A stretch of DNA of 64,000 bases from Alphaproteobacteria bacterium (GCA_028289425.1 JANQPL010000001.1:62001-126000), one strand, 5' to 3'; positions 7,637-31,932 are shown, numbered from the stretch's first letter. The notes: generated by a model not told the origin, from the letters alone. Program-made: numbers and translations.

Positions 7637-7726
<90 letters not shown>

Positions 7727-7736
7727 TCTCATCCAG

Positions 7737-7806
7737 GGTCCATTCTTGTCACATGGTTTACAGTTTATTCCGGAGACATGGTTTACACCTTCTCCGGTGA
7801 GAACGG
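7737..7806. mobile_element. Probable remnant of an IS481-type insertion end
   Basis: Two copies of ACATGGTTTACA (7751-7762 and 7776-7787) lie 25 bases apart, interleaved with TTCCGGA and CTCCGG. Tandem TGTAAACCATG plus CTCCGG units are what I remember from the ends of IS481-family elements. No transposase gene or second end is visible, so this is at most a solo end or deletion scar. The family assignment is from memory and tentative. Confidence 0.4.
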
Positions 7807-7932: not shown

Positions 7933-8823
7933 TCAATGCTGATTTCGGAGCCATTCTGTCGGTGATTGTCCTGTGTGCCGCCGGAACGCTGCGGCGAATT
8001 TGCTCGGGTTTGCATAGCCGACGGCCGTTGCCGCCTCCGTGATGGAAACGCCGTCTTGCATCATCGCCTTGGCACGGTCCATACGGCATTGCGTGACGTA
8101 TGAAAACGGCGTGCTGCCTGTTGCCCGTTTGAATGCGGCAAAAAACTGGCTGGGCTCAATACCCGCCTCCACTGCCATATCGGTAACCGTAATCGAACGT
8201 TCCAAGTTTTCATGAACGAAAACCTTCGCCCGTTCGACGCGAGTGCCATTTTTGCTCAGCCTACGGACGGGCCCATTTCGATTTTTTGCAACGCCGGCCA
8301 ATTGATCAAGGATGATGTCCACACCCTCATAAAAGAAGGAGGAATCCAACCCACGCACACCCGCCGTCTGCCACATCGCGTGCATGACGGAGGCGACGAC
8401 CGGATCACGCGTAATATCGCGCGCCGCGACGCGAAACTCGTCGGGCGACCAGCCGCCAAAAACAGCCGTATCAAATTGCGCCAAGTCGATAAAGAGCCCC
8501 AGAACCTCCATCGGCGCGCTTACCGTTTCGCCGACCGAGTCCGGAAGGATCACGCTTAGATCACCCGGCCGGATAATTTCTTCGATCGATGTATTGTCGG
8601 ATCTATAGAAAAGTTTCGTCTCGGCACCGATTGACAGGCCGATTTGGAGGTAACCCCCGTTGACGGAGAGGCCTTCAAATTTTCCGAAACGCCCCCACCC
8701 CATGAACGACGTCTTGTGTTCATCGCAGATGAACCGGTCTTGCAAAGCAATCTGGTTGGATTTCTCGATGAACCTTTGTTGTTCGCGCCGCATCAACGGC
8801 TCTGTGCCGGACTCTGTTACCAT
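7933..8823 (-). CDS. AraC-family transcriptional regulator
   Basis: A 296-residue regulator. The last ~98 residues form the double helix-turn-helix AraC domain (first HTH around SITVTDMAVEAGIEPSQFF, second around SITEAATAVGYANPSKFAAA, ending RRHTGQSPTEWLR). The first ~190 residues are an effector or dimerisation region I cannot assign; the layout is reminiscent of siderophore-sensing AraC regulators such as PchR, but no specific motif proves that. The gene is divergent from the ABC/TonB operon at 9002, so it probably controls that operon. Start ATG 8823; a second Met at residue 11 is possible. Confidence 0.85.
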   Translation of the reverse strand: MVTESGTEPLMRREQQRFIEKSNQIALQDRFICDEHKTSFMGWGRFGKFEGLSVNGGYLQIGLSIGAETKLFYRSDNTSIEEIIRPGDLSVILPDSVGETVSAPMEVLGLFIDLAQFDTAVFGGWSPDEFRVAARDITRDPVVASVMHAMWQTAGVRGLDSSFFYEGVDIILDQLAGVAKNRNGPVRRLSKNGTRVERAKVFVHENLERSITVTDMAVEAGIEPSQFFAAFKRATGSTPFSYVTQCRMDRAKAMMQDGVSITEAATAVGYANPSKFAAAFRRHTGQSPTEWLRNQH

Positions 8824-8886: not shown

Positions 8887-8905
8887 TTGCAACTAAGTCG
8901 CAAAT
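8887..8905. promoter_or_regulatory. Possible operator in the AraC/ABC intergenic region
   Basis: TTGCAACTAAGTCGCAAAT contains the inverted arms TTTGC (starting one base before) and GCAAA about a 9-base centre. It lies between the divergent AraC gene and the ABC operon. A second site at 16872-16890 matches it at 15 of 19 positions and looks more like a Fur box. Binding by the AraC protein or by Fur is inference. Confidence 0.4.
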
Positions 8906-9001: not shown

Positions 9002-9895
9002 ATGACTGAATCGGCCAGCGGTTCCGGTCTTGTAGTGGGGGGCCTCTGCAAGACGTATCGAAATGGCGTGCGCGCCCTTGACGGGGTCGATCTTCGAGTT
9101 TTGCCAGGCATGTATGGCCTTCTCGGCCCCAACGGGGCCGGCAAAAGCACGCTTATGCGTACGCTCGCCACCTTACAGTCGCCCGACAGCGGTACCATTT
9201 CCTTGGACGGTGTCGACGTTCTGGCGGATCCGGATTACCAGCGCGCCCGCTTAGGCTATCTGCCACAACAAATCGGATCCTATCCGGGCGTTACCGCGCG
9301 CGGTCTTCTGGATCGTTTCGTCTGGCTGAAGGGCCATACCGATCGCGGCTTTAGGCGGCGTGAAGTTGAACGGCTCTTGGACCGGGTCAATCTTGCCGAC
9401 GCGGCCGAGCAGACCGTGTCCACATATTCCGGCGGTATGCTGCGCCGTTTCGGTATCGCGTTAGCGCTTATTGGATCGCCGCGCCTTCTCATCGTCGACG
9501 AACCGACGGCCGGCTTGGATCCCGTCGAGCGCAACCGCTTTCATCATGTCCTCTCCGACGTGGCGGTCGACGCCATTGTCTTATTGTCCACCCACATTGT
9601 CGAAGACATCGAAAATCTCTGCGCTCGCCTCGCCATTATCGACAAGGGCCGCATCGTCGCCGAAGGTACCACAGCCGATCTTATCGCATCGTGCCGCGGA
9701 CGGCTTTGGGAAAAAGTCGTGCCCCGCGGCGAAGAGCTGCCGGAAGCGCTGCACATTGGTGCAAGACCCACCGGCACAAGAGTCGTTGTCGAGAGCGCGA
9801 CCCGACCGGGCGACGATTTCGAACCCCACGACCCGACGCTAGAAGATGTTTATTACCTGGCGCTTGCTGCAACCGGTTCGAAGGAAGCGGCATGA
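9002..9895 (+). CDS. ABC transporter ATP-binding protein
   Basis: This 297-residue ATPase subunit has Walker A GPNGAGKST (residues 42-50), the Q-loop in LGYLPQQ (near 89), the signature YSGGM (142-146), Walker B LLIVDEP (162-168), a D-loop and the H-switch STHIVED. The C-terminal ~90 residues are a family-specific extension typical of ABC-2-type exporters. It powers the membrane partner encoded immediately downstream, whose ATG overlaps this stop codon (ATGA). It is the first gene of an operon running to about 16.8 kb, divergent from the AraC regulator. Confidence 0.95.
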   Translation: MTESASGSGLVVGGLCKTYRNGVRALDGVDLRVLPGMYGLLGPNGAGKSTLMRTLATLQSPDSGTISLDGVDVLADPDYQRARLGYLPQQIGSYPGVTARGLLDRFVWLKGHTDRGFRRREVERLLDRVNLADAAEQTVSTYSGGMLRRFGIALALIGSPRLLIVDEPTAGLDPVERNRFHHVLSDVAVDAIVLLSTHIVEDIENLCARLAIIDKGRIVAEGTTADLIASCRGRLWEKVVPRGEELPEALHIGARPTGTRVVVESATRPGDDFEPHDPTLEDVYYLALAATGSKEAA

Positions 9896-12800
9896 GGCTT
9901 CCCGCATTGATTCTGCGCGAGGCTTGGCTTGAGGTTCGCGCAGGCCTGCGCAGTGGCATCGTTCTGCTGACGTTTTTAGCGCTCACCGCCTATTTGCTGA
10001 TTACTTTGCTCAACGCAGAATACATGCAGCGATTGGGCGCCACCGATATCCCACGCAATGCAGCAAGCGTGATCTATCTGATGGCGACGGGCTTCATGTT
10101 TTTCCTGTTCTTCGCCTGGGCTTGGGTTTTCGCTCAACCCGTCTTGCGCGACCGCGACGCGCTGCTGCACGAAATCGTTCTTGCAACGCCCAATTCACTG
10201 CAAGCGCTGCTGTGGGGCCGGTTTATCGGCGCATCATTCGTGGGCGCGCTGCTCGGCAGCGCGGCGTTGTTCGGATTCTATGTATCGCCGGTGCTGGAAT
10301 GGACGCAGCTTCTGCCCGCGGGTTCCATTTCGCCGACACCTTGGCTGCCATTTGCCTTTGCATTCGGCTTGCTAATAGCACCCCTGGCTGTTGGAATCGG
10401 GGCGCTCTATTTCATTGCGACGCTATATACGCGCAGCATTGGAGGTCCGCTCGCTACGTCCGCCCTTATGATTCTGCTTTGGATGTTTTCGGTGATCGTC
10501 CTGCAGGGCGGCGACATTAATCCAGCGCTTGCCACCATAATTGATCCGTCCCTGTTTAGTTTCGCTTTGGCGGAAACCGACACATGGACTCCCCAGCAAA
10601 AGACATGGGACTTTTTGCCGGCAACTCCAAGCTTTCAGATCAACCGGATCCTATGGGGCATAGGACCGCTGCTGATACTGGCTTGGACGTTGCAGCGGAC
10701 GACAAGGGAAAAGCTTGTGCTGGAAGCCGGGCGCCAATCTCGTGCCACGCCCCGCGCGCTTGCCGACCCAAAACCAACAGCCCTCAAATCATTTGAAGAG
10801 CGTCCCGCCGCCTTCTCCCCGAAGGCACAACGGCGATGGAGCCTGGCGTTCGTTTTAGAAACGAGCTGGCAACTCAATCGTCTCTTCAGAAGCCGCGCCT
10901 GGTGGGCCGGCGTGGCAATCCTCTTTCTCGTTGGATTGAGCAATACGTTTGTTCACATCATTTGGCATGCGGAAGGCCCCATGGTGCCCAATCCGGGCAT
11001 GTTGCTGCCGCTTCTCAATCAATCGGTATTCCTCGTCATCGTGTTCGTGGTTGCGGGTCTTGCCGGCATGAATTGCAGGCGTGACCATGTGCCGGGGCTG
11101 GACACAATGATGGATGCGGCGATTGCGCCCTACTGGTTGCGCCTGTTTGCCCGCGCCGTGACCGTGATTGCCGTGACCGCAACTCTGTCGTTGGTACCCG
11201 GCTTGTCGGCGATGGTCGCAACGATAATCGTCGCGCCCCAGTATCTCAATTTTACATTCTATCTGAACTACCAGCTCCTGCTCACCGCACCCTCTCAGAT
11301 CGAGATGGCTCTCGTCGTGTTGCTCGTACACACGTTAATCCGTGGCACCGGCCTTGCCTATGCCATGTCGATGTTTGCCATCTTTATACTGATCGTTAAT
11401 CACGAGCTTGAGCTGGTCACATACCCGCCCTTGGAAGTGGGTGTACCGGCCCACACAAATCTATCGGCACTGACGGGTTGGGCTCCGTGGGCAAGTTACC
11501 TGCTGACTCTGGATATATTCAAACTCGCCCTGGGAGTGCTGCTCGTTGCAGTGGCCGGTCTGATTTTGCCACGGGGCCTCGACAGCCGCCTGCAACACGG
11601 CTTTGCCCAGTTCAAAAAGCGGATCGCCGGGCCATCCGGTGCCTTGGCCGTGTTAGCCGTGTTTGCCTTAGGCACCTCCAGCGTAATTTTGCACGAACAG
11701 CTGGTCCACAACGGCGGATACCTCACCGCTGACTCGGAACGGCGGGAGGATGCCGCGTGGGAAAAACGCTGGTTTCCCAACGAAACCACATCTGCCACGT
11801 TTTTCGTTGCCGGAGGCGACCTGCGGCTGACAATTGACCCGGCCACGAAAACGATCGACGGCCGTTGGCACTTGCGCCAGGTAACCGCGCCAGCGGGTCA
11901 TCTGCACGTAACGCTGCCCCATGGTTTGGAAATCTCGGGCGCAATCGTGGACTCGCAGGAAGTCACGGTTCTCTCCCAATACGATCACGTCGCCATTCCC
12001 CTTGGCGATTGCGCGACGCGCGGCTGCACCGTCACACTCGCCTGGTCCGCTCGGTCAACGGGATGGTCCGCCGCAGGGGACACCGCCTGGTCAACACCGG
12101 TTGGAGTCTGGTTTCGTGCGGAAGATGTGGCCCCCCGCATCGGTTACGACACCGACCGTGTCCTGCGTGGGGCGACTGCGCGCCAAGATTACGGTCTGAA
12201 GCGCAACGTGCACTTGCCGAAAGCCCGAGCCGCTACGTCAAGTTACGCCATCGCACCTGCCGGTGAGTGGCAATGGGAGGTCGAACTCCTTGGAAGCGGT
12301 CAGCAGGCGGAACTGTTGGGTAGTCCGACCGGCACGACAAATGCGCCGCTGGATTTCGCCGTTCTGTGGGGCGCGACGGTCGAGGTGTCGCAGTCTGGTG
12401 GATTTCAGATCGCTCATGCCCGTCAAAATGCCGGGCAAGTCGACAGCGTGACAGAGGATGCATCCGACATGCAGGCCTGCGTGACGCGGCGCCTCGGCAC
12501 GACCGTCGAAATCGATCAAGTGGTGCAATGGCCACGCGGGCTCCACACGACCCATGTCAGTGGCGCCACATTGCAACTTGCCGAGGAACCCCATTGGGAC
12601 ATCGCTAATCGTGGGGTTGGGCGATGGCTGCGCCGGGCCGACATCGCCCGGGCACTCGCTCGCCGGCAACTCGTCGACATGACCGATCTGCGTCGTACAT
12701 CCGGATCCTTGTGGATTAGCGAAGGCGTGGCCGGAGCAATCGGTCTTCTGTGCGTCGCAGACACGGACGGCCTAGATGCATTCGCGAAAGTGCTCGTCCG

Positions 12801-13305
12801 CTATTCCGAAGCAGCGACAACCGCCCTGGCCTTGAGCGATGTTCCAGTCGGTGCGCTCGCAAACGCCCTTTCCGATAGTTGGGTTACGGAGTATGGGCCC
12901 CTTGCCGCACTCGACTGGGTCGCACAACAGACACCGGCAACGCTCAATGAACTCATGGCTGAGCTCAAAAAACGACAAGAGATTCGGAGTGTTTTGACCG
13001 ACCGCGTCGGACAGGTCACCGCAGACAACATACTCGGCAAACCACTGGCCTCGAGTCTAAATCTGGTGACCGAGAACAATCTTATTCATGTGAGCGGCAC
13101 GCGTTGGGCATGGCGCGACGGCGGCTGGCAGAAGCTTTCCGCCGCACCCCGATACCGCGTTCTTTCATCCGTTAGCGGAGCAGTTCGGCCAACGGAACCC
13201 ATAGGTGGGCCGATACCGGTAGAGCGCGTCAAGTCCGCACCGCTGCTTCTTCTCGATGAATGGCAATCCTATGAGCGGGCGCCAACGCTCGTCGGCGGAG
13301 AATGA
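9892..13305 (+). CDS. ABC-2 type permease fused to an M1-peptidase-like domain lacking zinc ligands
   Basis: A 1137-residue fusion. The N-terminal ~330 residues and a second block (about 390-640) carry two sets of hydrophobic spans, as in ABC-2 permeases. A large non-membrane part follows (about 660-1137). Similar permease/M1-aminopeptidase fusions are known in Bacteroidota and proteobacteria. Where M1 enzymes have HEXXH, this protein has RALAR (residues 920-924), followed about 20 residues later by ISEGVAG with Glu944 at the position of the third ligand. So the fold may persist but a zinc enzyme is unlikely. The start is ATG 9892, overlapping the ATPase stop; the reading frame extends further upstream inside the ATPase gene. 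The substrate is unknown. Confidence 0.8.
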   Translation: MRLPALILREAWLEVRAGLRSGIVLLTFLALTAYLLITLLNAEYMQRLGATDIPRNAASVIYLMATGFMFFLFFAWAWVFAQPVLRDRDALLHEIVLATPNSLQALLWGRFIGASFVGALLGSAALFGFYVSPVLEWTQLLPAGSISPTPWLPFAFAFGLLIAPLAVGIGALYFIATLYTRSIGGPLATSALMILLWMFSVIVLQGGDINPALATIIDPSLFSFALAETDTWTPQQKTWDFLPATPSFQINRILWGIGPLLILAWTLQRTTREKLVLEAGRQSRATPRALADPKPTALKSFEERPAAFSPKAQRRWSLAFVLETSWQLNRLFRSRAWWAGVAILFLVGLSNTFVHIIWHAEGPMVPNPGMLLPLLNQSVFLVIVFVVAGLAGMNCRRDHVPGLDTMMDAAIAPYWLRLFARAVTVIAVTATLSLVPGLSAMVATIIVAPQYLNFTFYLNYQLLLTAPSQIEMALVVLLVHTLIRGTGLAYAMSMFAIFILIVNHELELVTYPPLEVGVPAHTNLSALTGWAPWASYLLTLDIFKLALGVLLVAVAGLILPRGLDSRLQHGFAQFKKRIAGPSGALAVLAVFALGTSSVILHEQLVHNGGYLTADSERREDAAWEKRWFPNETTSATFFVAGGDLRLTIDPATKTIDGRWHLRQVTAPAGHLHVTLPHGLEISGAIVDSQEVTVLSQYDHVAIPLGDCATRGCTVTLAWSARSTGWSAAGDTAWSTPVGVWFRAEDVAPRIGYDTDRVLRGATARQDYGLKRNVHLPKARAATSSYAIAPAGEWQWEVELLGSGQQAELLGSPTGTTNAPLDFAVLWGATVEVSQSGGFQIAHARQNAGQVDSVTEDASDMQACVTRRLGTTVEIDQVVQWPRGLHTTHVSGATLQLAEEPHWDIANRGVGRWLRRADIARALARRQLVDMTDLRRTSGSLWISEGVAGAIGLLCVADTDGLDAFAKVLVRYSEAATTALALSDVPVGALANALSDSWVTEYGPLAALDWVAQQTPATLNELMAELKKRQEIRSVLTDRVGQVTADNILGKPLASSLNLVTENNLIHVSGTRWAWRDGGWQKLSAAPRYRVLSSVSGAVRPTEPIGGPIPVERVKSAPLLLLDEWQSYERAPTLVGGE

Positions 13306-13354
13306 CGACCAGTTTTGATTCACATCTCGGGCATTTTAGTTTTTGGAGGGGAGT

Positions 13355-15460
13355 ATGCACGTCAATCTAGCTCCGTGTCGCCAGGCGGCACTCGTTTCGT
13401 TTTCTCTATCACTATCAATGATTGCCTCGGCCATTTCGGTTCCAACCTATGCGGACGATAGTCCAACCGACATTATTGTCGTCACGGCACGTCACGGCAA
13501 CGAAGATGCCAAAGACATTCCCTTTGGCCTGAGCGTCATAGACGGGGAGACTTTAGAAATCCAACGGCAGTTCGATCTGGAAGACGCTCTGCGCTCCGTC
13601 CCCGGCGTGGACGTCAACTCGTCCGGCGCGCCGACACTTTCAAGCATTCGCATTCGGGGCGTCGGCTCGCTTTACCTTGCAAATCGAGACGACACGTCCG
13701 TTTCACTTTCCATCAACGGCGTTCCGACATCCACTGAGAACATATCGCTTGCGACGCTGGACGTGGAGCGCGTGGAAGTGCTGAAAGGGCCGCAGAGTAG
13801 CGTTTTCGGCCGCAATAGCGAAGCGGGGGTCATCAATATAACGACCCGAAAACCGACCAGCGACTTTGAAGCCTCAATCCGAGGTGAGTACGGACAGGAA
13901 AATCAATATTTGGCGCAATCAATTATCAATGGTCCTCTCGCGGAAAACCTGAATGCCCGCTTCGCCATTCGATACACCGGATCCGATCATTGGATCGATA
14001 ACATTCAGACAGGCGATCCTGTCACAACACCAACGGATTTGGCACTGCGCGGCAGCCTGTTGTGGGAGTCCGGTGCCACGTCGGTCTTGGTGTCGGCGGA
14101 ACATCAAGACACAGACGAGCAAATCGCCATACAATTGCTGCGACCATTCCCAGATGATCCCTTTTTCGATGTCGCACCAGGGCGATTTGGAGACAACGAC
14201 AAAGAACTCTATCGGTATGCGGCGGAAATTAGTCACGAATTCAGTGGCAGCCGCCTAACCTCCATCACAGCCTATACTTCTTATGACCTGTACAATGAAG
14301 TGGCCTTCGACCGGAGGCTCAACCAGGCACTGTTTTCATTTCCAGCTGAAACCGTGCAAGTTCAATTTGCGGATGAACGGATTATCAGCCAAGACCTGCG
14401 CTGGACGTCGTTACCCAGTTCTTCGCTTTTCTGGGTGACAGGCTTTAGTTTTTGGGATTCCGACCGGGACTACGGCAACGTTGACATTGGCTTGCCCACC
14501 AGCGGGCAACGCGATCTCGGTACGACAAGTTATGGGATCTACGGAGAGGTCACCTATCCGCTAACGGATGCCTTGAAGCTGACCGGCGGCCTGCGTGTCT
14601 CTAGAGATCGTAAAACCTATGACGCGAGATATTTCTTTGGGACCTTTGCAACGCCCGACAGCCGCGACCTGAAAGACACATATGCCACAGGCCGGGCGGC
14701 GATCTCGTACGCGATCACACCCGAAGCCAATATCTATGTGCTGGGCGCGCGCGGCTATAAGTCCGGTGGTTTCAATGAGTTCGCCACGTCGACCACCGAC
14801 AGCGAACCCTTTAGAGCTGCACGGGTTAACACGGCGGAGATTGGCTTCAAAAGCGTTTTTCCGTCCACAGGCCTCAATCTGAATGCGGCCGTGTTCTACA
14901 ACAATGTGAAAGACGACCACCTGCTCGGGTTTAACCCGATGACCTTCGCGAGCAACATTCTTAATGCGGACACGGAGAGTTTCGGCGCCGAGCTGGAAGG
15001 AAGTTGGAACCTGGGACAAGGCTTGGTGCTTTCGGGCGCCGCCACCTATATTGACGCCGAAATCAAGAGCGATGTGACGGGCGTATTCGGTGGGGATGTT
15101 TCGGCCGGCAATCAAGCCCCCGACGTGCCCCACTGGAGCGGCAGCGTCTCCCTGTCATGGGATCACGCCCTACCTGATTTTCTGAGCCTGCCGTCCCCCG
15201 CCTTGAACGCTCATATCAGCTACCGATATCAAGGCGAACGGGCGGCAGACGTCCAGAACAGTTTTGATTTGGAGCAATATGGCAAGCTCGATCTGAGGGC
15301 CGGGATTTCTACCGAAAATGCTGAGCTCTATTTCTGGGGCGACAATCTTACGGACAACCAATACGATCTTTATGGTTTCGGCTTCGGCTTCCCGGGGGCG
15401 GAAAGCGGTGCGCCCGCCCGCGGTCGAACGATTGGTTTCGGTGTCGGCGTGACTCTTTAA
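13355..15460 (+). CDS. TonB-dependent outer-membrane receptor
   Basis: A 701-residue receptor with a signal peptide (residues 1-33, ending near PTYA), a TonB box DIIVVTA, a plug domain (about 45-160, with RIRGVGS, ERVEVLKGPQS and GRNSEAGVINITTRKP) and a C-terminal 22-strand barrel. It takes a substrate through the outer membrane using TonB energy. ATG 13355 has GGAGGGG upstream; an in-frame TTG 12 bases earlier is less likely. It lies 49 bases downstream of the ABC permease fusion, in the same operon, so uptake and inner-membrane transport of the same compound are likely. A siderophore-like ligand is a guess. Confidence 0.93.
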   Translation: MHVNLAPCRQAALVSFSLSLSMIASAISVPTYADDSPTDIIVVTARHGNEDAKDIPFGLSVIDGETLEIQRQFDLEDALRSVPGVDVNSSGAPTLSSIRIRGVGSLYLANRDDTSVSLSINGVPTSTENISLATLDVERVEVLKGPQSSVFGRNSEAGVINITTRKPTSDFEASIRGEYGQENQYLAQSIINGPLAENLNARFAIRYTGSDHWIDNIQTGDPVTTPTDLALRGSLLWESGATSVLVSAEHQDTDEQIAIQLLRPFPDDPFFDVAPGRFGDNDKELYRYAAEISHEFSGSRLTSITAYTSYDLYNEVAFDRRLNQALFSFPAETVQVQFADERIISQDLRWTSLPSSSLFWVTGFSFWDSDRDYGNVDIGLPTSGQRDLGTTSYGIYGEVTYPLTDALKLTGGLRVSRDRKTYDARYFFGTFATPDSRDLKDTYATGRAAISYAITPEANIYVLGARGYKSGGFNEFATSTTDSEPFRAARVNTAEIGFKSVFPSTGLNLNAAVFYNNVKDDHLLGFNPMTFASNILNADTESFGAELEGSWNLGQGLVLSGAATYIDAEIKSDVTGVFGGDVSAGNQAPDVPHWSGSVSLSWDHALPDFLSLPSPALNAHISYRYQGERAADVQNSFDLEQYGKLDLRAGISTENAELYFWGDNLTDNQYDLYGFGFGFPGAESGAPARGRTIGFGVGVTL

Positions 15461-15507
15461 CGGTTGCCGCGGCATATCGGAAGAGAGGTTGCCCAGCTCA
15501 GAAGGAA

Positions 15508-16254
15508 ATGATCATGCAGGATGTTTCCGCACCAACGGAGACTATGAATGACTCCACGTTGCTGCGTACCGCCGGGATACTTGCCATTCTGGGTGGAATT
15601 GCCAACGCTGTTTCCGATTATCTGCTTCAGGGCGGCCTTATTCCGCGCGCGGCGGTTAATACTTACGATTTCCTGCCATTTGCACCTTACGATTTAGTCT
15701 TTATAGGGAGTATTATTGGCAATGCGGCAATCCCCCTTTGGCTATTAGGGTTTTGGCCGGTCTATGTAGCCCTTGCGCCAGCCGGACGTTGGCTCGCTAT
15801 TCCCACCGTCTGCTTTCTTGGGTATGGGTTCTCTCTGTTCCCGGGCTATCACGGCGCCTATGCGCTCTACGCGGCCGGGTTTCAAGCGCAACGCGAGGCG
15901 CCAGAAGCGCTTTCAGAAACGACGGCTACTCTGGTCCAACGGCTTCACGATTATCACGACGCGCTGCTCAATGTGATTGGTGTGCCCATGATGGTTGGAT
16001 CGCTTTTGTTCGCGGTTACTGTCCTACTGGGACGGACACTGTTTAGTCGGTGGGTCATCCTCATTTCACCGATTGTCGTTCCCTTCACCCAACCGTTCAT
16101 CGAAATGCTGCCCGCCCCTTATGGTGGGCTCATTCGACCGGCATGGGGAACGACGGTCTTCACCGTGTTTTTCCTGGTGGCAACGGTCGTAACATGGAAT
16201 GTGCGCCCTGGTCTTTCGCAGCAATCGGCAACCCGTCCGACGATCATGAAATAA
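15508..16254 (+). CDS. Polytopic membrane protein, function unknown
   Basis: A 248-residue protein with about six hydrophobic spans (for example LRTAGILAILGGIANAVSDY, IPLWLLGFWPVYVALA, TVCFLGYGFSLFPGYHGAYA and GTTVFTVFFLVATVVTW). Conserved-looking features are a histidine-rich loop (LHDYHDALLN) and aromatic segments GYHGAY and APYGG. The layout recalls small uncharacterised membrane proteins of the DUF4386/DUF6796 type, but I cannot assign it firmly. AGAAGGAA precedes the ATG. It follows the TonB receptor by 47 bases and is probably co-transcribed. Confidence 0.6.
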   Translation: MIMQDVSAPTETMNDSTLLRTAGILAILGGIANAVSDYLLQGGLIPRAAVNTYDFLPFAPYDLVFIGSIIGNAAIPLWLLGFWPVYVALAPAGRWLAIPTVCFLGYGFSLFPGYHGAYALYAAGFQAQREAPEALSETTATLVQRLHDYHDALLNVIGVPMMVGSLLFAVTVLLGRTLFSRWVILISPIVVPFTQPFIEMLPAPYGGLIRPAWGTTVFTVFFLVATVVTWNVRPGLSQQSATRPTIMK

Positions 16255-16363
16255 TTCGATCCGATGGATCGAATTGACGATGGGCGCGTTGACTCTCAAT
16301 ACATTTGTATGCTGATTGGCTGGTTCCTTACTGGCCGATTTTCCTTTTTTGGTCCGCTGAGAC

Positions 16364-16834
16364 ATGGATGACCTCACCATCGCCAGAGCCCTGCACGTGC
16401 TCGCCATTGTTCATTGGATTGGAGGTGTCTCGCTGGTCACCCTGGTGCTGTTGCCGGGGATCACGCGCTCCGTGCCGCCGAAAGACCGGCTAAGCCTTTT
16501 CGAGATGATTGAAGGACGCTTCGCTTTCCAGGCACGCATTTCAACGTTGATCGCCGGCGCGACGGGCTTTTACATGACTCATCAGCTGGACGCTTGGTAT
16601 CGGTTCACGGATCCGACATTTTGGTGGATGCATGCGATGGTGCTGATCTGGGTGCTCTTCACATTCGTGCTCTTCGTTGCGGAGCCCTTGTTTCTCCATC
16701 GGTGGTTTCACGAGCAGGCGACCGTTGCGCCAGAAAAGACATTCGCGCTGGTGCTGCGGATGCATCGAATTCTCCTTACGCTCAGCCTCGTCACTGTGGG
16801 TGCGAGCGTGCTCGGTGCGCACGGCGCACTCTGA
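16364..16834 (+). CDS. Membrane protein, CopD/DUF2269-like plan, function unknown
   Basis: A 156-residue protein with four predicted spans: residues 6-30 (LHVLAIVHWIGGVSLVTLVL), ~55-70, ~85-110 and ~130-152. Histidines sit at the ends of spans (ALHVLAIVHW, YMTHQ, WMHAM, RMHRILL), a pattern seen in small CopD-like or haem-binding membrane proteins. That likeness is only in layout. It is the last recognisable gene of the ABC/TonB block, 109 bases after the previous gene. Confidence 0.6.
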   Translation: MDDLTIARALHVLAIVHWIGGVSLVTLVLLPGITRSVPPKDRLSLFEMIEGRFAFQARISTLIAGATGFYMTHQLDAWYRFTDPTFWWMHAMVLIWVLFTFVLFVAEPLFLHRWFHEQATVAPEKTFALVLRMHRILLTLSLVTVGASVLGAHGAL

Positions 16835-16871: not shown

Positions 16872-16890
16872 TTGCAACTCATTATCAAAT
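16872..16890 (+). promoter_or_regulatory. Fur-box-like motif
   Basis: TTGCAACTCATTATCAAAT resembles proteobacterial Fur boxes (CTCATTATC half) and matches the site at 8887-8905 at 15 of 19 positions. It lies 35 bases before a small reading frame with a good ribosome-binding site. Iron regulation of the block is therefore plausible but unproven. Confidence 0.4.
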
Positions 16891-23914: not shown

Positions 23915-25618
23915 CTAGTCGATCCAACCTCTGGGGTTTTCAGTAAGGCTCTCATTCATGGCCTCGATGGTCGCCTTGAGGTCCCTTGTTTTCTTTGGGT
24001 ATCGCCCCTGGAGGTCGTGAGCTTCTCGACCGCGCTGCAGGTCGGTGAGCATCGGGTTAGCAAACGGCGTGAATGCGCTCAAGGGCAACGGATAGAGAAT
24101 TTGGCTAGCCTGCTTCTGTGTTCTCAAACGATATTTGAAACGGCTATCGCGCACTGCCTCAAGCCGGCCATGCCAGGCAGAGAAGTAAAAGAGATGCTCG
24201 TGAGGGGACGCTTTCCGTTCCGAAATCATGGGGAGAAGATTGCGGCCGTCAATCGCCCGGTCCGTAGGCGGATCGATCTCTGCAACACCGAGGACGGTCG
24301 GCAGGATGTCGATATTCATGGCCATTCCGTCCAGGGTTGCGCCTTTGGGCAGTCTTTCAGGCCAAGAAAAAATCCCCGGTACCCGCATGCCCCCTTCGAA
24401 GGTTTCTCCCTTCCGGCCCCTCAGGGGACCGACGCTGCCAAGGTAATCGCCCCCATTGTCACTGGTGACGATCACAAGAGTGTTGTCGCCAAGTCCCTGT
24501 TGTTCAAGCGCCTGCATCACCATCCCCACACTGCGGTCCAGATCTTCGACCACGTCGCCGTAAAGGCCCGCCGCGGAGCGACCCTCAAACGCCGCGTCGG
24601 CGTAGTGAGGCACATGGGGAAAGGTGTGGGCGAGATAAAGAAAGAAGGGCCGCCTATCGGTCTGCTCCAAAAAGGTTACCGCTTCCTGGGTGTAAAGCGC
24701 GGTCAACTTCGTTTGATCCACTTGGTCCGCTGGCACCTCAATTTGTTTCTGGCGGTAGATGTGGAGCGGCGCCATATCGTTGGAAAAATGAACACCGTAA
24801 AAACTTTCAAATCCAAAGTCGTTTGGCAGATGTCCGTCCCGGTCCCCAAGATGCCATTTGCCGATCATGCCCGTGCGGTACCCGGCAGCCGCCAAGATCT
24901 CCGGCAATAGGATTTCATCTTGCACAAGCGCATTGGGATAGCCTTGCACCTTGCGGAAGAGGGCCACGGGGCTGCCTTCCGGAAAGAATACGTGGTTCGC
25001 CGCATGGGCGCGCACCGGATAGCGTCCTGTCAAAAGGCCCGCCCGCGACGGCGTACAGACCGGCGAGGACGAATAGAACTCCGTAAGCTTGACCCCGGTT
25101 TTCGCGACGCGGTCGATCTCGGGTGTCTCGATCAACGCGTTGCCATAGCTCGACAGGTCGCCATAGCCCAGATCGTCGAAGAAAATGACGATCACATTGG
25201 GTGCCCCGTCTGCCGCTGTCGGCACGGCGGCTAGATAATCGCGCTTTTGAGCAAGCCGTTCCGGTGCCGGCGGCACATAGGCCGCCGCTGCCTTGAGCCA
25301 ATGAGGATTGGGGCCCAAGCTGATGGACAACGACTGTCGCTTTCCTTCCGTCACGGTCACAGGGCGCGACGCAGTGGCCAAGCCGAACTGCATCACCTGC
25401 AACAGATACTCCCCGGGCGGAATGTCTGCCAACACGAATGACCCGTCCCTGTCGCTCACCGTACCGCGCAGCGTATCCTGCAAATAGACACGGGCGCCCC
25501 CAAGCGGTTCACCGTTGGGGCCCAAGATCTCACCGCTAATTTCCGCCGCACTGATCGTTTCGGACCGGAATACCAAGCATGCACACATGATCAGTAATCC
25601 CCACAATCTAATTTGCAT
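23915..25618 (-). CDS. Arylsulfatase-type sulfatase with an N-terminal carboxypeptidase-regulatory-like domain
   Basis: A 567-residue exported sulfatase. A signal peptide (1-25) is followed by a ~75-residue Ig-like domain of the carboxypeptidase-regulatory type (about 27-100, with PNGEPLGGARVYLQDT and DGSFVLADIPPGEYLLQV). The type I sulfatase core begins near residue 140: VIVIFFDDLGYGD carries the metal-binding Asp pair, and C188-T-P-S-R is the formylglycine motif. A separate maturase is needed and none is in the window. It removes sulfate from a glycan, inferred from the neighbours. It is the last gene of the TonB receptor-GH3-permease-sulfatase operon, 3 bases after the permease gene. Confidence 0.93.
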   Translation of the reverse strand: MQIRLWGLLIMCACLVFRSETISAAEISGEILGPNGEPLGGARVYLQDTLRGTVSDRDGSFVLADIPPGEYLLQVMQFGLATASRPVTVTEGKRQSLSISLGPNPHWLKAAAAYVPPAPERLAQKRDYLAAVPTAADGAPNVIVIFFDDLGYGDLSSYGNALIETPEIDRVAKTGVKLTEFYSSSPVCTPSRAGLLTGRYPVRAHAANHVFFPEGSPVALFRKVQGYPNALVQDEILLPEILAAAGYRTGMIGKWHLGDRDGHLPNDFGFESFYGVHFSNDMAPLHIYRQKQIEVPADQVDQTKLTALYTQEAVTFLEQTDRRPFFLYLAHTFPHVPHYADAAFEGRSAAGLYGDVVEDLDRSVGMVMQALEQQGLGDNTLVIVTSDNGGDYLGSVGPLRGRKGETFEGGMRVPGIFSWPERLPKGATLDGMAMNIDILPTVLGVAEIDPPTDRAIDGRNLLPMISERKASPHEHLFYFSAWHGRLEAVRDSRFKYRLRTQKQASQILYPLPLSAFTPFANPMLTDLQRGREAHDLQGRYPKKTRDLKATIEAMNESLTENPRGWID

Positions 25619-25621
25619 GGT

Positions 25622-26893
25622 CTATCTCCTGTCCGAACGCAAAACCGAGAGTGCGAAGAAAACGATGTAGCCGTAACACAGCACCGGCAAGAAGAATGCA
25701 ACCGCTATGCTGGTTTCATCAGCGATCGCCCCGGCGATTACCGGAATGACGGCCCCGCCGACGATGCTCATACACAGAATACCCGACCCATGCGCCGTAT
25801 CTCGACCTAAGCCTGCGATACTTAGTGAGAAGATGGTGGGGAAACCGATTGCGTTGAAAAGGCCAACAGCAAGGATTGTCCAAACCGAGAGGGGTCCTCC
25901 GATGACAATCGTTAGCAGGACCATGAGGATCGCCATGCCGGCGGAAACCGCAAGAAGAACAGACGGCGACACCGACCGCATGAGGCCGGCACCGATAAAC
26001 CGCCCCACCATCGCGCCGCCCCAATAGAGACTGACCAGGCTTGCTGCCTGGCTTGCGGACATACCCGCGACGGCCTCTTCGACAAAATAGTTGACTAGGA
26101 AACTCCCGATCGTCACTTCGGCGCCCACATAAACGAAAATCGCGCCAACACCCAGTTTGAGATTTCGATGTTGAAGAGCTCCCCGGTAAGATCCAGTGTC
26201 GGGGCCTATAGCTGCGTGAGAGCTGACGGCATCAACCGGCACCCGCTTAGATACGAATACCATCGCCACGAGGATAAGCATTAGCCCAATGACAATGAAC
26301 GGCTGACGCGCCAGATCCGCACTCAGTGATCGATAATCTTCCAATTGCGCATCAGTCAAAGCTTGTACTTGGTGCACCGGCAAAACGTCTAAACTGAGAA
26401 TCGAGACGGCGCCAACGACCGGCGCCAGCGTTGTGCCAAGGGAATTAAATGCCTGAGCCAATGTTAGGCGGCTTGCAGCCGTCTGAGCAGATCCCATCAA
26501 GACCACGAGTGGATTGGCTGCGACTTGCAAAATTGTGATGCCCGAGGCAAGGACGAACAACGCAAGGACGAAGAGGCCATACACACGATAATCTGCTGCC
26601 GGAACAAATAAGAAGCACCCAATCGCCATCACAGCTAAACCAGCGATCACGCCCATTCGATAGCCGTAGCGCGCAACGAAACCGCCTGCCGGTAGCGATA
26701 CCAAGAAATAGGCCGCGAAAAACCCGAACTGAACAAACATTGCTTGAAAATACGACAGTTCAAAAAGAGACTTCAGGCGAGGGATTAGCAAGTCCACCAG
26801 AACCGTCGTAAAACCCCACATGAAAAAGAGCCCGACGAGCAGTGCAAGCACCAACCGGTTTCGGGCGACGGGAACGGTTGTGGCAACCGACAC
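25622..26893 (-). CDS. MFS sugar permease, FucP/GluP family
   Basis: A 423-residue permease with 12 predicted spans. The segment LVLALLVGLFFMWGFTTVL, then LIPRLKSLFELSYFQA, is the signature start of the fucose/glucose-galactose (FucP, COG0738) family, and GITILQVAANPLVVLMGS with LAQAFNSLGTTLAP confirms it. It would import a monosaccharide across the inner membrane by proton symport. The start is GTG 26893 with GGGGAG 8 bases upstream. It sits 3 bases from both neighbours (GH3 upstream, sulfatase downstream), so it probably imports what the hydrolase releases. Confidence 0.93.
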   Translation of the reverse strand: MSVATTVPVARNRLVLALLVGLFFMWGFTTVLVDLLIPRLKSLFELSYFQAMFVQFGFFAAYFLVSLPAGGFVARYGYRMGVIAGLAVMAIGCFLFVPAADYRVYGLFVLALFVLASGITILQVAANPLVVLMGSAQTAASRLTLAQAFNSLGTTLAPVVGAVSILSLDVLPVHQVQALTDAQLEDYRSLSADLARQPFIVIGLMLILVAMVFVSKRVPVDAVSSHAAIGPDTGSYRGALQHRNLKLGVGAIFVYVGAEVTIGSFLVNYFVEEAVAGMSASQAASLVSLYWGGAMVGRFIGAGLMRSVSPSVLLAVSAGMAILMVLLTIVIGGPLSVWTILAVGLFNAIGFPTIFSLSIAGLGRDTAHGSGILCMSIVGGAVIPVIAGAIADETSIAVAFFLPVLCYGYIVFFALSVLRSDRR

Positions 26894-26896
26894 AGA

Positions 26897-29185
26897 CTAT
26901 TCTCCCCGCAGCACAAATTGAGCGCCAAGATCCGCTTCGGACGAACCCCCGACAAAGACTTCAAACCGACCTGGTTCGACACGCCACGTCATGTCAGGTC
27001 CCCAAAAACCAAGTGCGTGCGGATCGATATCAAACCTGATCGTTCTACTCTTCCCGGGCGCTAGGGAAACTTTCTGAAAAGCCTGCAGTTCACGGATGGG
27101 TCGAGTGACGCTACCGACGAGGTCCCGCACGTATAGTTGCACCACTTCTTCACCCGTTCGATCACCGATATTGGTTAGTGTGACCGATACGCCGAGCGAC
27201 TGATCATGCGCGATGTCCGCCGCATCCAAACGAAGGTCCGTATAATTGAATTGCGTATAACTTAATCCGTACCCGAAGGGGTATTGCGGCTGGGAAGACG
27301 TATCAATGTATCTCGCTTTAAAGCGGTCCGCGCGTTCAGGAACGTCAGGACGTCCTGTATTTTTCCGGTTGTAGTAGATAGGACACTGGCCGGACGCTGT
27401 GGGAAACGTCATGGGCAATTTGGCTGAGGGGTTGTAGTCCCCAAACACGACATCGGCGACCGCATGGCCCATTTGCGAGCCGAGAAACCATGTCACCAGG
27501 ATGGCGTCGGCATTGTCGGCAAGCCATGGGATGGCTAATGGACGTCCATTGCGCAGTAACACCACAATGGGCTTGCCTGAAGCCTTCAATGCTTTGGCCA
27601 ATTCCATTTGTGGTTTTGGAATTGTGATGTCCGCGCGCGACTTGGCCTCTCCGGACATATGCTGCCCCTCACCCACGGCGAGAAGAACAATGTCCGCCTG
27701 TGAGGCGGCCGCAATTGCCTCGTCAATCCCGCCATCGATAGCTTTTTCGATTCCGCTGCCTTTAACGACGATGAGAGAATCCGGGCTCATCAACGCCGAT
27801 CGAATTCCGTCCGCGAGATTCACCGATTCATCATTCCGTCCAAAGATACTCCAAGGCCCATTAAGGTGTTCATTCTCTCGGGCGAACGGACCAATAAGCG
27901 CGAGGCGCTTGATGTCCTTGGCCAGGGGAAGCACATTTCCCTGGTTCTTCAGAAGAACGATTGATCGCCTGCCTGCATCGCGTGCCAGGTCGACAATCGG
28001 TTGGCTGCCGATAAGGGTCTCTTCTCGCTTTTTGTCGAAGTAACGAAAAGGATCGTCAAAGAGTCCAAGGCGAAATTTGTAACGCAGAACGCGTCTGACG
28101 GCGGTATCGATTTGGCTTTCTTGCACACGCCCTTGGCGGACCAAGTCTACCAGATGATCATTATACAGACCACTTTGCATGCTCATATCCAAACCGGCGT
28201 TAAGCGCTAGGCTGGTCGCGTCCTCTTCATCTGCGGCAAATCCGTGAGCCACGAGCTCTAAATCAGAGTTGAAATCGGAAACGACGAATCCATCAAAGTC
28301 CCATTCGTCGCGCAGAATCTGTTTGAGGAGGAACGGGTCGGCTGTCGCCGGCACGCCATTGATTTCGTTGAAAGCCGACATGATGGCGCCGGCACCGGAA
28401 TCGATCGCAGCCTTAAACGGCGGAAGATAGTGTTGTCGCAAGGTCCGTTCAGAAATATCAACTGTATTGTAGTCGAGTCCGGCTATGGCCGCCCCGTACG
28501 CCGCAAAATGCTTTGGCGTCGCAAGCATGGTGTCGAATGACGACAGATCAGCGCCCTGAAAGCCGCGCACGCGAGCCGACGCGAAGAGGCTGTTAAGCAG
28601 GACATCTTCTCCGGCCCCTTCGACCGAGCGGCCCCAACGGGCATCCCGGGAAACATCCACCATCGGCGCGAAGTTCCAACTTATCCCTGCGGCCGTTGCT
28701 TCCTGAGCGGCAGCGCGTGCCGTTCGTTCCGCCAAGGAGGGCTCAAAACTCGCGGCCTCGGCCAAGGGGACGGGAAAGACCGTTCTGAAACCGTGGATCA
28801 CATCCGCCCCGAAGATGAGCGGTATCCCCAGGCGAGATTCGTTGACGGCGACCTCCTGGTTACGCCGCAGCAAATCGACACCAAACCCATTAAATATCCC
28901 GGTCACCTTGCCGGCGCGAATTTCGTCGAAACGTTCCTCTGCGGGCTTGGGCTTGAACACAGGATTCACGGGATCGTGGTTCAAGGCCTCAAATGATGTG
29001 GCATACAGGCTGAGTTGTCCGACTTTTTCCTCCAAGGTCATCCGGCCAAGAAGGTTGTCGATAAAGGTATCCTCGTTCTTCATCGCATCTTCGGCGGCCG
29101 AACTACCGATAAAAGAAAAAGCCGTCACAGCGAACAAGGGAGCAAGCAGTAATTTTATGGCATTGCTCCCCTGCGCTTTCATCAT
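26897..29185 (-). CDS. Glycoside hydrolase family 3 (beta-glucosidase type)
   Basis: A 762-residue exported GH3 enzyme of BglX-like length. A signal peptide (1-31) precedes the (beta/alpha)8 domain with PLIFGADVIHG, PKHFAAYGA, and VVSDFNSDLE carrying the likely nucleophile Asp304. The alpha/beta sandwich domain (with GEGQHMSGEAKSRAD and PIVVLLRNGRPLAIP) and a C-terminal fibronectin-like domain (about 650-760) follow. It releases terminal beta-linked sugars; the exact sugar is unknown. It is the second gene of the operon, 46 bases after the TonB receptor. ATG 29185 is followed by a second Met. Confidence 0.94.
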   Translation of the reverse strand: MMKAQGSNAIKLLLAPLFAVTAFSFIGSSAAEDAMKNEDTFIDNLLGRMTLEEKVGQLSLYATSFEALNHDPVNPVFKPKPAEERFDEIRAGKVTGIFNGFGVDLLRRNQEVAVNESRLGIPLIFGADVIHGFRTVFPVPLAEAASFEPSLAERTARAAAQEATAAGISWNFAPMVDVSRDARWGRSVEGAGEDVLLNSLFASARVRGFQGADLSSFDTMLATPKHFAAYGAAIAGLDYNTVDISERTLRQHYLPPFKAAIDSGAGAIMSAFNEINGVPATADPFLLKQILRDEWDFDGFVVSDFNSDLELVAHGFAADEEDATSLALNAGLDMSMQSGLYNDHLVDLVRQGRVQESQIDTAVRRVLRYKFRLGLFDDPFRYFDKKREETLIGSQPIVDLARDAGRRSIVLLKNQGNVLPLAKDIKRLALIGPFARENEHLNGPWSIFGRNDESVNLADGIRSALMSPDSLIVVKGSGIEKAIDGGIDEAIAAASQADIVLLAVGEGQHMSGEAKSRADITIPKPQMELAKALKASGKPIVVLLRNGRPLAIPWLADNADAILVTWFLGSQMGHAVADVVFGDYNPSAKLPMTFPTASGQCPIYYNRKNTGRPDVPERADRFKARYIDTSSQPQYPFGYGLSYTQFNYTDLRLDAADIAHDQSLGVSVTLTNIGDRTGEEVVQLYVRDLVGSVTRPIRELQAFQKVSLAPGKSRTIRFDIDPHALGFWGPDMTWRVEPGRFEVFVGGSSEADLGAQFVLRGE

Positions 29186-29231
29186 GTTGCAAGGCTGATC
29201 GATCCGACTGGCCTAATCCGCACTTTCGTTC

Positions 29232-31526
29232 CTAGAACCTCAGTGCAACGCTTCCCCCGAAGCGGCGCTGAGCATTTCGCGGGATGATTTGGAAGAACCC
29301 ACCCGGATCATTGATAAAGACCTCACCAATTGTCGCCGCATATGACTTGTCTCCAACGTTTCTGACAAAGAAACTCGCTTCGATGCGATCATTTGGAGAA
29401 ATGACGCCGACAGCCAGGTCGACGAGCGCATAACCATCTTGCACCGTTCCTGGATTCTGATTGATGGCGAACTGAACCTCCGATTGGTAATTCGCGTTAA
29501 CTTGCCCGTATACCCGCGGACCGTCGCCGCTGATCGGCTTTTCATAGCGAGCCTGAAGATTGAACTTCCATTCCGGCGAGTTCGGCAAGCTCCTGCCCGA
29601 AACATCCTGTATGGTGCCTCCGGTCACTGCCATACATCCTTGGGCCGCGGTTTGACCGGCAAAGCACGCTGCATTGGTGAAGGAACTAAAGAACGCATCT
29701 GTAAAGCCGACACCGCCCGTGAACGAGAGCTCGTCCGTCGGGTCCCAAACTGCCGTAAGCTCAACACCTCGTGCAACAGATTCACCGGCGTTCAACAAGG
29801 ATGCCGCAGCCGTCGCACTATTGAACGCTTGGACCTGCAGGTTCTGGAACAGGCTGTAGAAGAGATTCAGATCGATGAAGACATTGCTCCATCCGAATGG
29901 ACTTCCGCGAAAACCAAGCTCGAAGGCGTTGGCGGTTTCAGGGTCGACTGCGCCAGCATCCAACACGGCGGTCGTAATGCCCAAGGTCGCGTCAAATGCC
30001 AGCCCCTTGTACCCCCGGGCGTAGGTGGCAAATGCCGTGAATTCGTCTGTGATATCGTATTGAACCCCAGCACGGCCGATCACTGCAAAGTCTGTTGCTT
30101 CGTCCGATCCTTCAAACCCGTTGAAAACAGCCGTTTCAAAAGAGTTTTCCTCGTAAATAAAACGTATGCCTCCGATCAAAGACAACCGGTCCGTCACACC
30201 AAAGGTGGTGTCACCAAATGCTGAAAGGTTTGTGTTATCGACGTTAAGTGTAAAGAAACTGTCGGTCTCAAACGGGGCAAGACACGGGCTTCCCACAGCG
30301 AGGCCCGCAAAACAAAGTTGAACGTCCCGATCAAAGAATCGATCCGTTTCGTTTCGAAAATAGAAGAGACCGAGTACATAGTCGAACCGGCCGTCGGTAT
30401 TGGATGTCAGGCGAAACTCTTGTGTCACTGTCGATGTCGCTGGAGATGCGCCCTGCTGCAATCCGACAGCACCCGTGACGGGAGCACTGCCTGTCGATCC
30501 GAAGAAGTCCGTATCGCCCAATGTCAGGTTTTGCGACCAATCCCTGTAAGCCGTCAATGAAGTCAGCGTTACCGGACCTAAATCCGCCTGGACCTCGAGC
30601 GACGCACCCCATTGTTCGTAGTCATCAACTTTGTCGATTTCGTTTGAAATGTCCGTGTTGACCGTAGACGGTATAACACCGGCTGCCAGTGTCAGAATAT
30701 CTGTACCCGCTGCCTCCCGTAGCTGAAGATCACAGCAATTGCGGCGTTGCGAAAGATAGTCGCCGCTAATTTTCACATAAACGTTGCTGCCGACATCGAA
30801 ATCGAGTTTGGCGCGCACCCCATAGGACTCCTCGGCACCATCCTCAATGCCGAGAAACACATTGTCATAGTAGTCGCCAAATTCTCGATAAAATCCCGTT
30901 ACCCTGAAACCCATATTGTCGTTAATCGGTCCGGACACGGAAGCATCGACTCGATACTCATCCAACTCGGCGCCTCTGAATTTTAAAGAGGCTTCAAACT
31001 CCTCCGCCGTGTCCTTGGTGATATAGCTGATGACCCCCGCTGACGAGTTCTTTCCGAACAGGGTCCCCTGCGGTCCACGCAGGACTTCAATACGCTCGAT
31101 GTCGGAAAACTCCACAAGGCCACTTCCGTTTCGGGCCAAAACAACACCATCGATAACAAAAGAGACACTGGGCTCGACTGTGACGCTGAAAACACTTGTG
31201 CCAACACCACGGATACGGACGGCTGTACCGTCCAGGCCCACAGCATCCGCAATAGTAAGTGACGGAACAAGCAGCGAAAGATCCTGAACATTATCGAAGA
31301 AGACGCGATCTAGCGCGTCTCCGTCCACGACGTTCACTGCGACGGGCACTTCGAGCAGCGTTTGTTCGCGCCGCTGGGTGGTCACGATCAGTTCATCCAT
31401 CGTTTTTGCCGTACCGGCGCTAGAAGGTTCTGCGCCTTGTGCAAAAACTTGCCCCCCCCACAAGAATGCACATGACAGAGCACCGATCACGGCGGTGCAC
31501 GCACCAATTTGGTTGCTGTATTTCAT
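29232..31526 (-). CDS. TonB-dependent outer-membrane receptor (glycan operon)
   Basis: A 764-residue receptor with a signal peptide (MKYSNQIGACTAVIGALSC, cleaved near VFAQ), a TonB box DELIVTTQR, a plug (ERIEVLRGPQGTLFGKNSSA, ISYITKDT) and a barrel ending in SVALRF. The ATG at 31526 has GGGAGTAGG upstream; an in-frame TTG 102 bases further out would give an unlikely N-terminus. It heads the GH3-permease-sulfatase operon, so it probably imports oligosaccharides produced at the cell surface. The promoter region holds a dyad motif that recurs before the GH97 gene. Confidence 0.94.
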   Translation of the reverse strand: MKYSNQIGACTAVIGALSCAFLWGGQVFAQGAEPSSAGTAKTMDELIVTTQRREQTLLEVPVAVNVVDGDALDRVFFDNVQDLSLLVPSLTIADAVGLDGTAVRIRGVGTSVFSVTVEPSVSFVIDGVVLARNGSGLVEFSDIERIEVLRGPQGTLFGKNSSAGVISYITKDTAEEFEASLKFRGAELDEYRVDASVSGPINDNMGFRVTGFYREFGDYYDNVFLGIEDGAEESYGVRAKLDFDVGSNVYVKISGDYLSQRRNCCDLQLREAAGTDILTLAAGVIPSTVNTDISNEIDKVDDYEQWGASLEVQADLGPVTLTSLTAYRDWSQNLTLGDTDFFGSTGSAPVTGAVGLQQGASPATSTVTQEFRLTSNTDGRFDYVLGLFYFRNETDRFFDRDVQLCFAGLAVGSPCLAPFETDSFFTLNVDNTNLSAFGDTTFGVTDRLSLIGGIRFIYEENSFETAVFNGFEGSDEATDFAVIGRAGVQYDITDEFTAFATYARGYKGLAFDATLGITTAVLDAGAVDPETANAFELGFRGSPFGWSNVFIDLNLFYSLFQNLQVQAFNSATAAASLLNAGESVARGVELTAVWDPTDELSFTGGVGFTDAFFSSFTNAACFAGQTAAQGCMAVTGGTIQDVSGRSLPNSPEWKFNLQARYEKPISGDGPRVYGQVNANYQSEVQFAINQNPGTVQDGYALVDLAVGVISPNDRIEASFFVRNVGDKSYAATIGEVFINDPGGFFQIIPRNAQRRFGGSVALRF

Positions 31527-31932
31527 CCTACTCCCCATCGCTCTTGTTACCCGCATGCGAGCGTTCTTTTGTGCAATTGTCTGCGAGCACGCCTTCACAC
31601 TCGTGTGACTATTTCCTTTTGTGCTCAAGTGAATAATATTGAATGGTTCATTTTATTCAATCCTGAATATTCTTTGTTGAATATTTTTCTGGTCTAATTC
31701 GCCGTTTGTGACAGTTCGGCAACAGTCGAGGCCGCAACAACCCTACAAATTCAGTAGACGGCTCATTACTTGTTGACGACTTTCGCGACTGCGAAACACC
31801 GCACTCGGATAGCTTCGTATTGATGCGACTAGTCGCGAGCACCATTTGCATTCCGTTTCTGTGCCGCTAAGTTAGTGAATCGAGAAATGCATCCTCAGAA
31901 TTGTATTTTGAGTAAATACATCAGGAAGTATT
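31527..31932. other. Divergent regulatory region between TonB receptor and TetR genes
   Basis: This gene-free stretch of about 400 bases is AT-rich over 31600-31700 and contains the dyad listed separately. No small gene with a ribosome-binding site is visible. It presumably holds the promoters of both flanking transcription units. Confidence 0.6.
31654..31669. promoter_or_regulatory. Dyad operator TATTCA-N4-TGAATA upstream of the TonB receptor
   Basis: TATTCA (31654-31659) and TGAATA (31664-31669) form a 16-bp inverted repeat. Further TGAATA or TGAATG half-sites lie at 31630, 31640 and 31678. The flanks CATTTTATTCA-N4-TGAATATT are the same as at 34850-34872. The site is 128 bases upstream of the receptor start and in the region shared with the divergent TetR gene. 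Confidence 0.5.

Follow-up and report, generated by a model that had tools for sequence, protein, structure and literature searches.

The closest described counterpart of the locus studied here is the mupirochelin cluster of Pseudomonas sp. NCIMB 10586, which includes mchO-mchP-mchQ together with mchS and mchR (PMC10080011). In that paper, deletions establish a role of MchQ in uptake and of MchR as the activator of the cluster; the mchOPQ operon is predicted to act in internalisation, and MchP, for which the paper describes no mutant, is named just a "membrane protein". The same paper names strains that carry the uptake genes but no biosynthesis, among them Pseudomonas sp. KBW05 (L009 in our set).

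We analysed a 64,000-nucleotide stretch from an Alphaproteobacteria bacterium (GCA_028289425.1 JANQPL010000001.1:62001-126000; hereafter the window), in which a plus-strand operon faces a divergent minus-strand gene for an AraC-family regulator (7933..8823; PF12833, E 5e-23). An earlier note on this DNA had mapped an ATPase, a permease, a TonB receptor and two membrane proteins to the operon, and this gene map was right. The operon opens with an MchO-like ABC ATPase of 297 aa (9002..9895; PF00005, E 1e-27), whose stop overlaps the start (9895 versus 9892) of an MchP-like gene, assigned by homology, whose product joins an ABC-2 permease to a pseudo-M1 domain (1137 aa; 9892..13305). Next comes an MchQ/FyuA-like TonB-dependent receptor of 701 aa, assigned by its identity to mch-type receptors (13355..15460), followed by a DUF6796 membrane protein (248 aa; 15508..16254; PF20599, E 3e-10) and a 156-aa membrane protein whose translation has weak DUF4149 similarity (16364..16834). 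When compared with loci from strains and species that PMC10080011 names, rather than with the NCIMB 10586 sequence itself, the MchO-, MchP- and MchQ-like genes are adjacent, lie in the same order and are homologous over their full length, at 65-71%, 43-47% and 46-51% identity, respectively. Judged by sequence, the permease family is that of MchP, and the window operon is very probably an MchOPQ-type siderophore-utilisation operon. The mch cluster and the window operon share the order ATPase-permease-TonB receptor and a nearby AraC regulator; however, the window operon lacks biosynthesis genes, has one receptor only and carries two extra membrane genes after it, its AraC regulator differs in N-terminal type and is encoded divergently, and the YbtPQ-like pair of the genome lies on a separate contig.

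With one genome scanned per species, 30 relatives of the permease were found at 44-51% identity, most of them over nearly full length. Full-length relatives (43-51%) come from Pseudomonas, Luteibacter, Alcanivorax, Nitrococcus, Niveispirillum and others, and the relatives found include P. simiae, L. anthropi and Pseudomonas sp. KBW05, all of which PMC10080011 names. No relatives were found among viral contigs, and a plasmid search gave one distant match, in Hymenobacter, annotated as 'M1 family aminopeptidase'. Among the 28 full-length relatives with full context, a multimodular NRPS (1.9-2.2 kaa) adjoins the permease in 20 and a YbtPQ-like ABC half-transporter pair in the remaining 8, with a TonB receptor in the locus of 27. 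We had considered whether the neighbouring NRPS makes corrugatin, histicorrugatin or lactuchelin and abandoned this, the mupirochelin paper fitting both gene order and strains. Since the uptake-type loci retain MchOP without NRPS genes nearby, utilisation of a siderophore is favoured over its biosynthesis or the export of a new product. The earlier note had left the cargo as peptide-like or metallophore; the MchOPQ family together with an NRPS or YbtPQ-like pair beside every one of the 28 relatives, and a TonB receptor beside all but one, strongly supports a metallophore, and the same context of siderophore synthesis and uptake disfavours a peptide.

Sequence searches with the permease returned no match in Pfam, NCBIfam or the PDB, and a profile search of the PDB with its family gave chance matches only. 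In contrast, the family profile aligned colinearly over 930 columns with L034, an intact ABC-2 permease/M1-aminopeptidase fusion from the same class (1194 aa, HEVAH; hhalign probability 99.6%, E 1e-23). Similar to this and three further intact fusions (L095, L096 and L097), with which it is colinear over its full length, the permease has two ABC-2 halves, an extra hydrophobic segment, a C-terminal M1 domain and an adjacent cognate ATPase gene. The ATPase itself is 48-52% identical to the ATPases adjoining intact fusions, and 65-71% identical to those adjoining the permease's relatives, and its nearest solved structures are ABCA-type ATPases and, among bacterial ones, NosF. An AlphaFold2 model of residues 585-1137 (11644..13302), built with 29 sequences as input, reached a mean pLDDT of 83.7 and a pTM of 0.84, and the best 50 PDB matches from Foldseek all belonged to the M1 family (E 1.8e-15 and prob 1.00 for the top one); a model of the full-length permease was less confident (pLDDT 70.8) and gave the same M1 matches. 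Structure prediction and comparison with M1 gluzincins thus found an M1 fold, and on the model, fold search and profile alignment the M1-half resemblance that the earlier note had seen in the C-terminal domain is real. Hydropathy and charge show about 13 hydrophobic segments and positively charged loops at 270-315 and 559-580 ahead of the C-terminal domain, from which the pseudo-M1 domain is predicted to lie in the periplasm.

The intact fusions carry HEVAH, HELAH, HELGH or HEIGH and a third Glu, whereas the MchP clade lacks these. Two alignments, one including the four intact fusions, place the HEXXH position at A916-D917-I918-A919-R920, four residues before the RALAR at 920-924 that had been proposed to stand in its place; the absence of HEXXH from the window's permease was therefore read correctly, and the RALAR register was dropped for 916-920. 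Glu944, which had been pointed out as retained, does align with the third zinc ligand. It is kept in only 3 of 17 tabulated family members, so that in these sequences its retention is not a family feature. No HEXXH occurs at the aligned position of the domain in any of 29 family sequences, and no homologue with an intact motif was found in the mch context; in these sequences the loss of the zinc motif is family-wide. Among the 17 aligned members, the residues seen at the first His position are A/T/E/V/G, at the Glu position D/H/E/N, at the second His position R/E/T/A/Q and at the third-ligand position E/Q/D/R/H/W. Thus of the features of an active M1 zinc aminopeptidase the fold is present, but the set of HEXXH and conserved third Glu is not (ADIAR, with an E944 that is present and not conserved), and the model, fold search and alignment all support a zinc-less domain that would be catalytically dead, as had been suggested.

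While the zinc positions vary, R911, R914, I918, A919, A923 and R924 never change across 29 sequences, nor does L927 across the 17 aligned members, which argues that the old active-site helix is under a new constraint and is not decaying. Moreover, C863 and C954 are invariant in the aligned MchP-like proteins and absent from the four intact fusions, and could possibly form a disulfide or a new site. Considering that the zinc site has been lost family-wide, the domain probably handles the siderophore instead of cutting peptides, and a conserved and apparently unrecognised pseudo-peptidase domain would be placed in a siderophore pathway. A review of pseudopeptidases offers precedent for repurposing the M1 fold in yeast Tma108, an M1-family pseudopeptidase that binds other proteins, although Tma108 acts on nascent chains at the ribosome and outside any transporter (PMC11266112). 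Our limited literature search, which is no proof of novelty, found nothing on ABC-2/M1 fusions or MchP as a pseudopeptidase. At one intact HELGH fusion (L096:286-9924), the ATPase gene is preceded by a gene for a PehA-type phosphoric/sulfuric ester hydrolase and, one gene further upstream, by that for an unrelated TonB receptor, so a link to TonB uptake may exist for active fusions as well.

The remaining iron-siderophore equipment of the genome, which is 99.75% complete, fits a consumer. It contains no NRPS condensation domain, the mark of mupirochelin biosynthesis that was looked for, a single copy of the permease, and one ordinary M1 peptidase elsewhere. The TonB receptor is much nearer in sequence to receptors of mch loci (46-51% identity) than to its next paralogue in the genome (31%), and among solved structures the pesticin/yersiniabactin receptor 4epa matches it best (E 3e-35), followed by the enantio-pyochelin receptor. 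A YbtPQ/IrtAB-like pair lies on another contig, apart from the operon (L101:8101-11678; contig C14 of genome G000), and its members are 47-49% and 44-48% identical to the half-transporters of uptake-type mch loci, with YbtQ/IrtB and IrtA/YbtP as the closest single half-transporters of known structure. An MFS transporter gene sits beside this pair in convergent orientation. A FyuA-like receptor and a YbtPQ-like pair are thus common to this genome and to yersiniabactin uptake by YbtPQ/FyuA, whereas to our knowledge Ybt systems have no ABC-2/pseudo-M1 transporter. On the best reading, in which the cargo is judged from the 46-51% identity of the receptor, the operon would use a foreign, mupirochelin-like aryl-oxazoline/thiazoline siderophore, and we predict that non-producers such as this bacterium, whose transport set is divided between two loci, subsist on the siderophores of others.

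How the parts might work together can be put as follows. The MchQ-like receptor would bring the ferri-siderophore to the periplasm, where the MchO/MchP ABC-2 transporter would present its catalytically dead M1 domain; in its former peptidase cleft this domain would bind the siderophore, and the permease, driven by ATP, would move so as to open or close the domain and control capture and release. The siderophore would then be handed to the YbtPQ/MchCD-like importer, whose genes lie elsewhere in the genome. Because a YbtPQ-like importer is already available, MchOP most likely works at the periplasmic face, and binding or gating of the siderophore there is the most likely role of the pseudo-M1 domain. 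The whole chain, from receptor uptake through pseudo-M1 binding and ATP-driven gating to hand-off, we put forward tentatively, at somewhat under an even chance; against it stand the YbtPQ-like pair, which is not adjacent to the operon, and the AraC regulator, which is no full-length orthologue of MchR. ABC-2 transporters of established direction are mostly exporters, so a capture role for MchOP would also be unusual. More speculatively, and with the balance somewhat further against it, MchP-type proteins might form a class of their own among ABC transporters, one that handles siderophores by means of a repurposed, zinc-free M1 fold; this fold would bind the siderophore and act as a gate in the periplasm, and a type V (ABC-2) engine would drive it, possibly by NosFY-like mechanical coupling without translocation. 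The M1 fold in any case yields a testable hypothesis for MchP, a protein found in biocontrol pseudomonads.

Both the ABC-2 and the ABCA/NosF-type ATPase classes are usually linked to export, and among the alternatives the best standing belongs to one that takes this at face value, namely that MchOP is a recycling exporter which, once iron has been released, removes spent apo-siderophore (or else another toxic ligand) from either the cytoplasm or the periplasm, its pseudo-M1 domain serving as a periplasmic adaptor. Such re-export would suit the ABC-2 fold and the type of the ATPase, would leave import to the YbtPQ-like pair and would account for MchOP being kept in uptake-type loci; however, the window operon encodes no outer-membrane efflux partner, and the authors of PMC10080011 predict internalisation, so that we consider it unlikely, if only somewhat less probable than a separate transporter class. 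That same prediction would agree with MchOP being the inner-membrane importer of the siderophore, taking the place of a permease that depends on a binding protein; the pseudo-M1 domain would then be that binding protein in fused form. MchOP is in fact the sole inner-membrane ABC transporter in the window's operon, which encodes no periplasmic binding protein. An import role is nevertheless improbable, about half as probable in our judgement as re-export, given the NRPS or YbtPQ-like pair beside all 28 relatives and the YbtPQ-like pair of the window's own genome. It would moreover need an ABC-2 importer, and we know of no established class of these.

Least probable by a wide margin, to the point that we would be surprised by it, is an active or cryptic peptidase, or an operon that imports or processes peptides: the M1 fold, the intact HEXXH of the related fusions and the Glu944 of the window's copy speak for it, yet HEXXH is missing from all members, the third-ligand position is variable, and the surroundings are those of siderophore synthesis and uptake and not of peptide use.

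Regulation of the operon by iron is suggested by the 17-bp palindrome TTGCAACTAAGTCGCAA (8887..8903; 7-1-7), which sits between the AraC gene and the operon and is the sole exact match in the 64-kb window. The palindrome has few sites in the genome, and apart from it just one exact site of the class TTGCRANTNANTYGCAA occurs there, upstream of bacterioferritin (L060), with a second, weaker copy 44 bp from it; a one-mismatch site precedes a TonB receptor gene (L061). Because several other one-mismatch sites fall inside genes, the reading of 8887-8903 as a putative Fur-like operator is only suggestive. Just after the last gene of the operon there is a weaker copy with two mismatches (16872-16888), which may be due to chance. 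The window's AraC protein resembles the Pseudomonas MchR-type AraC in its HTH domain only, so orthology with MchR does not hold, and in two MAG contigs of alphaproteobacteria the same AraC gene stands divergently ahead of the ATPase gene (L025, 40% identity; L028, 43%).

The operon appears to have been acquired sporadically and probably horizontally, since the permease is missing from another genome of the same genus (97% complete), and of 385 genomes sampled in the class only one other matched, with an intact fusion. A tRNA gene abuts the AraC gene, and a search for a tRNA-borne island found no flanking direct repeat. At 7637-7742 ARAGORN calls overlapping tRNA-Ser(GGA) on the plus strand and tRNA-Arg(TCG) on the minus strand, one of which is presumably false.

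The two small downstream membrane genes lie outside the conserved gene set. The DUF6796 gene starts 47 bp after the receptor gene, has no homologue at the corresponding position in the relatives' loci and is a probable co-transcribed accessory gene. A 109-bp gap precedes the 156-aa gene, so its membership of the operon is only plausible; 17 further genomes of the class carry orthologues of it (48-62% identity), which lie apart from siderophore genes wherever a locus was inspected, and a tie of this protein to siderophore uptake was dropped on account of these unrelated contexts. Two relatives carry homologous genes of their own 3' of the receptor (L002:16886-17572 and L031:16293-17033), the L031 copy encoding a MerC-domain membrane protein. 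Further along the window, on the minus strand at 23915-31628, a sulfatase, a sugar-type MFS transporter, a GH3-like glycosidase and a TonB receptor stand in a row, in what looks, from translations read by eye, like a polysaccharide-use locus.
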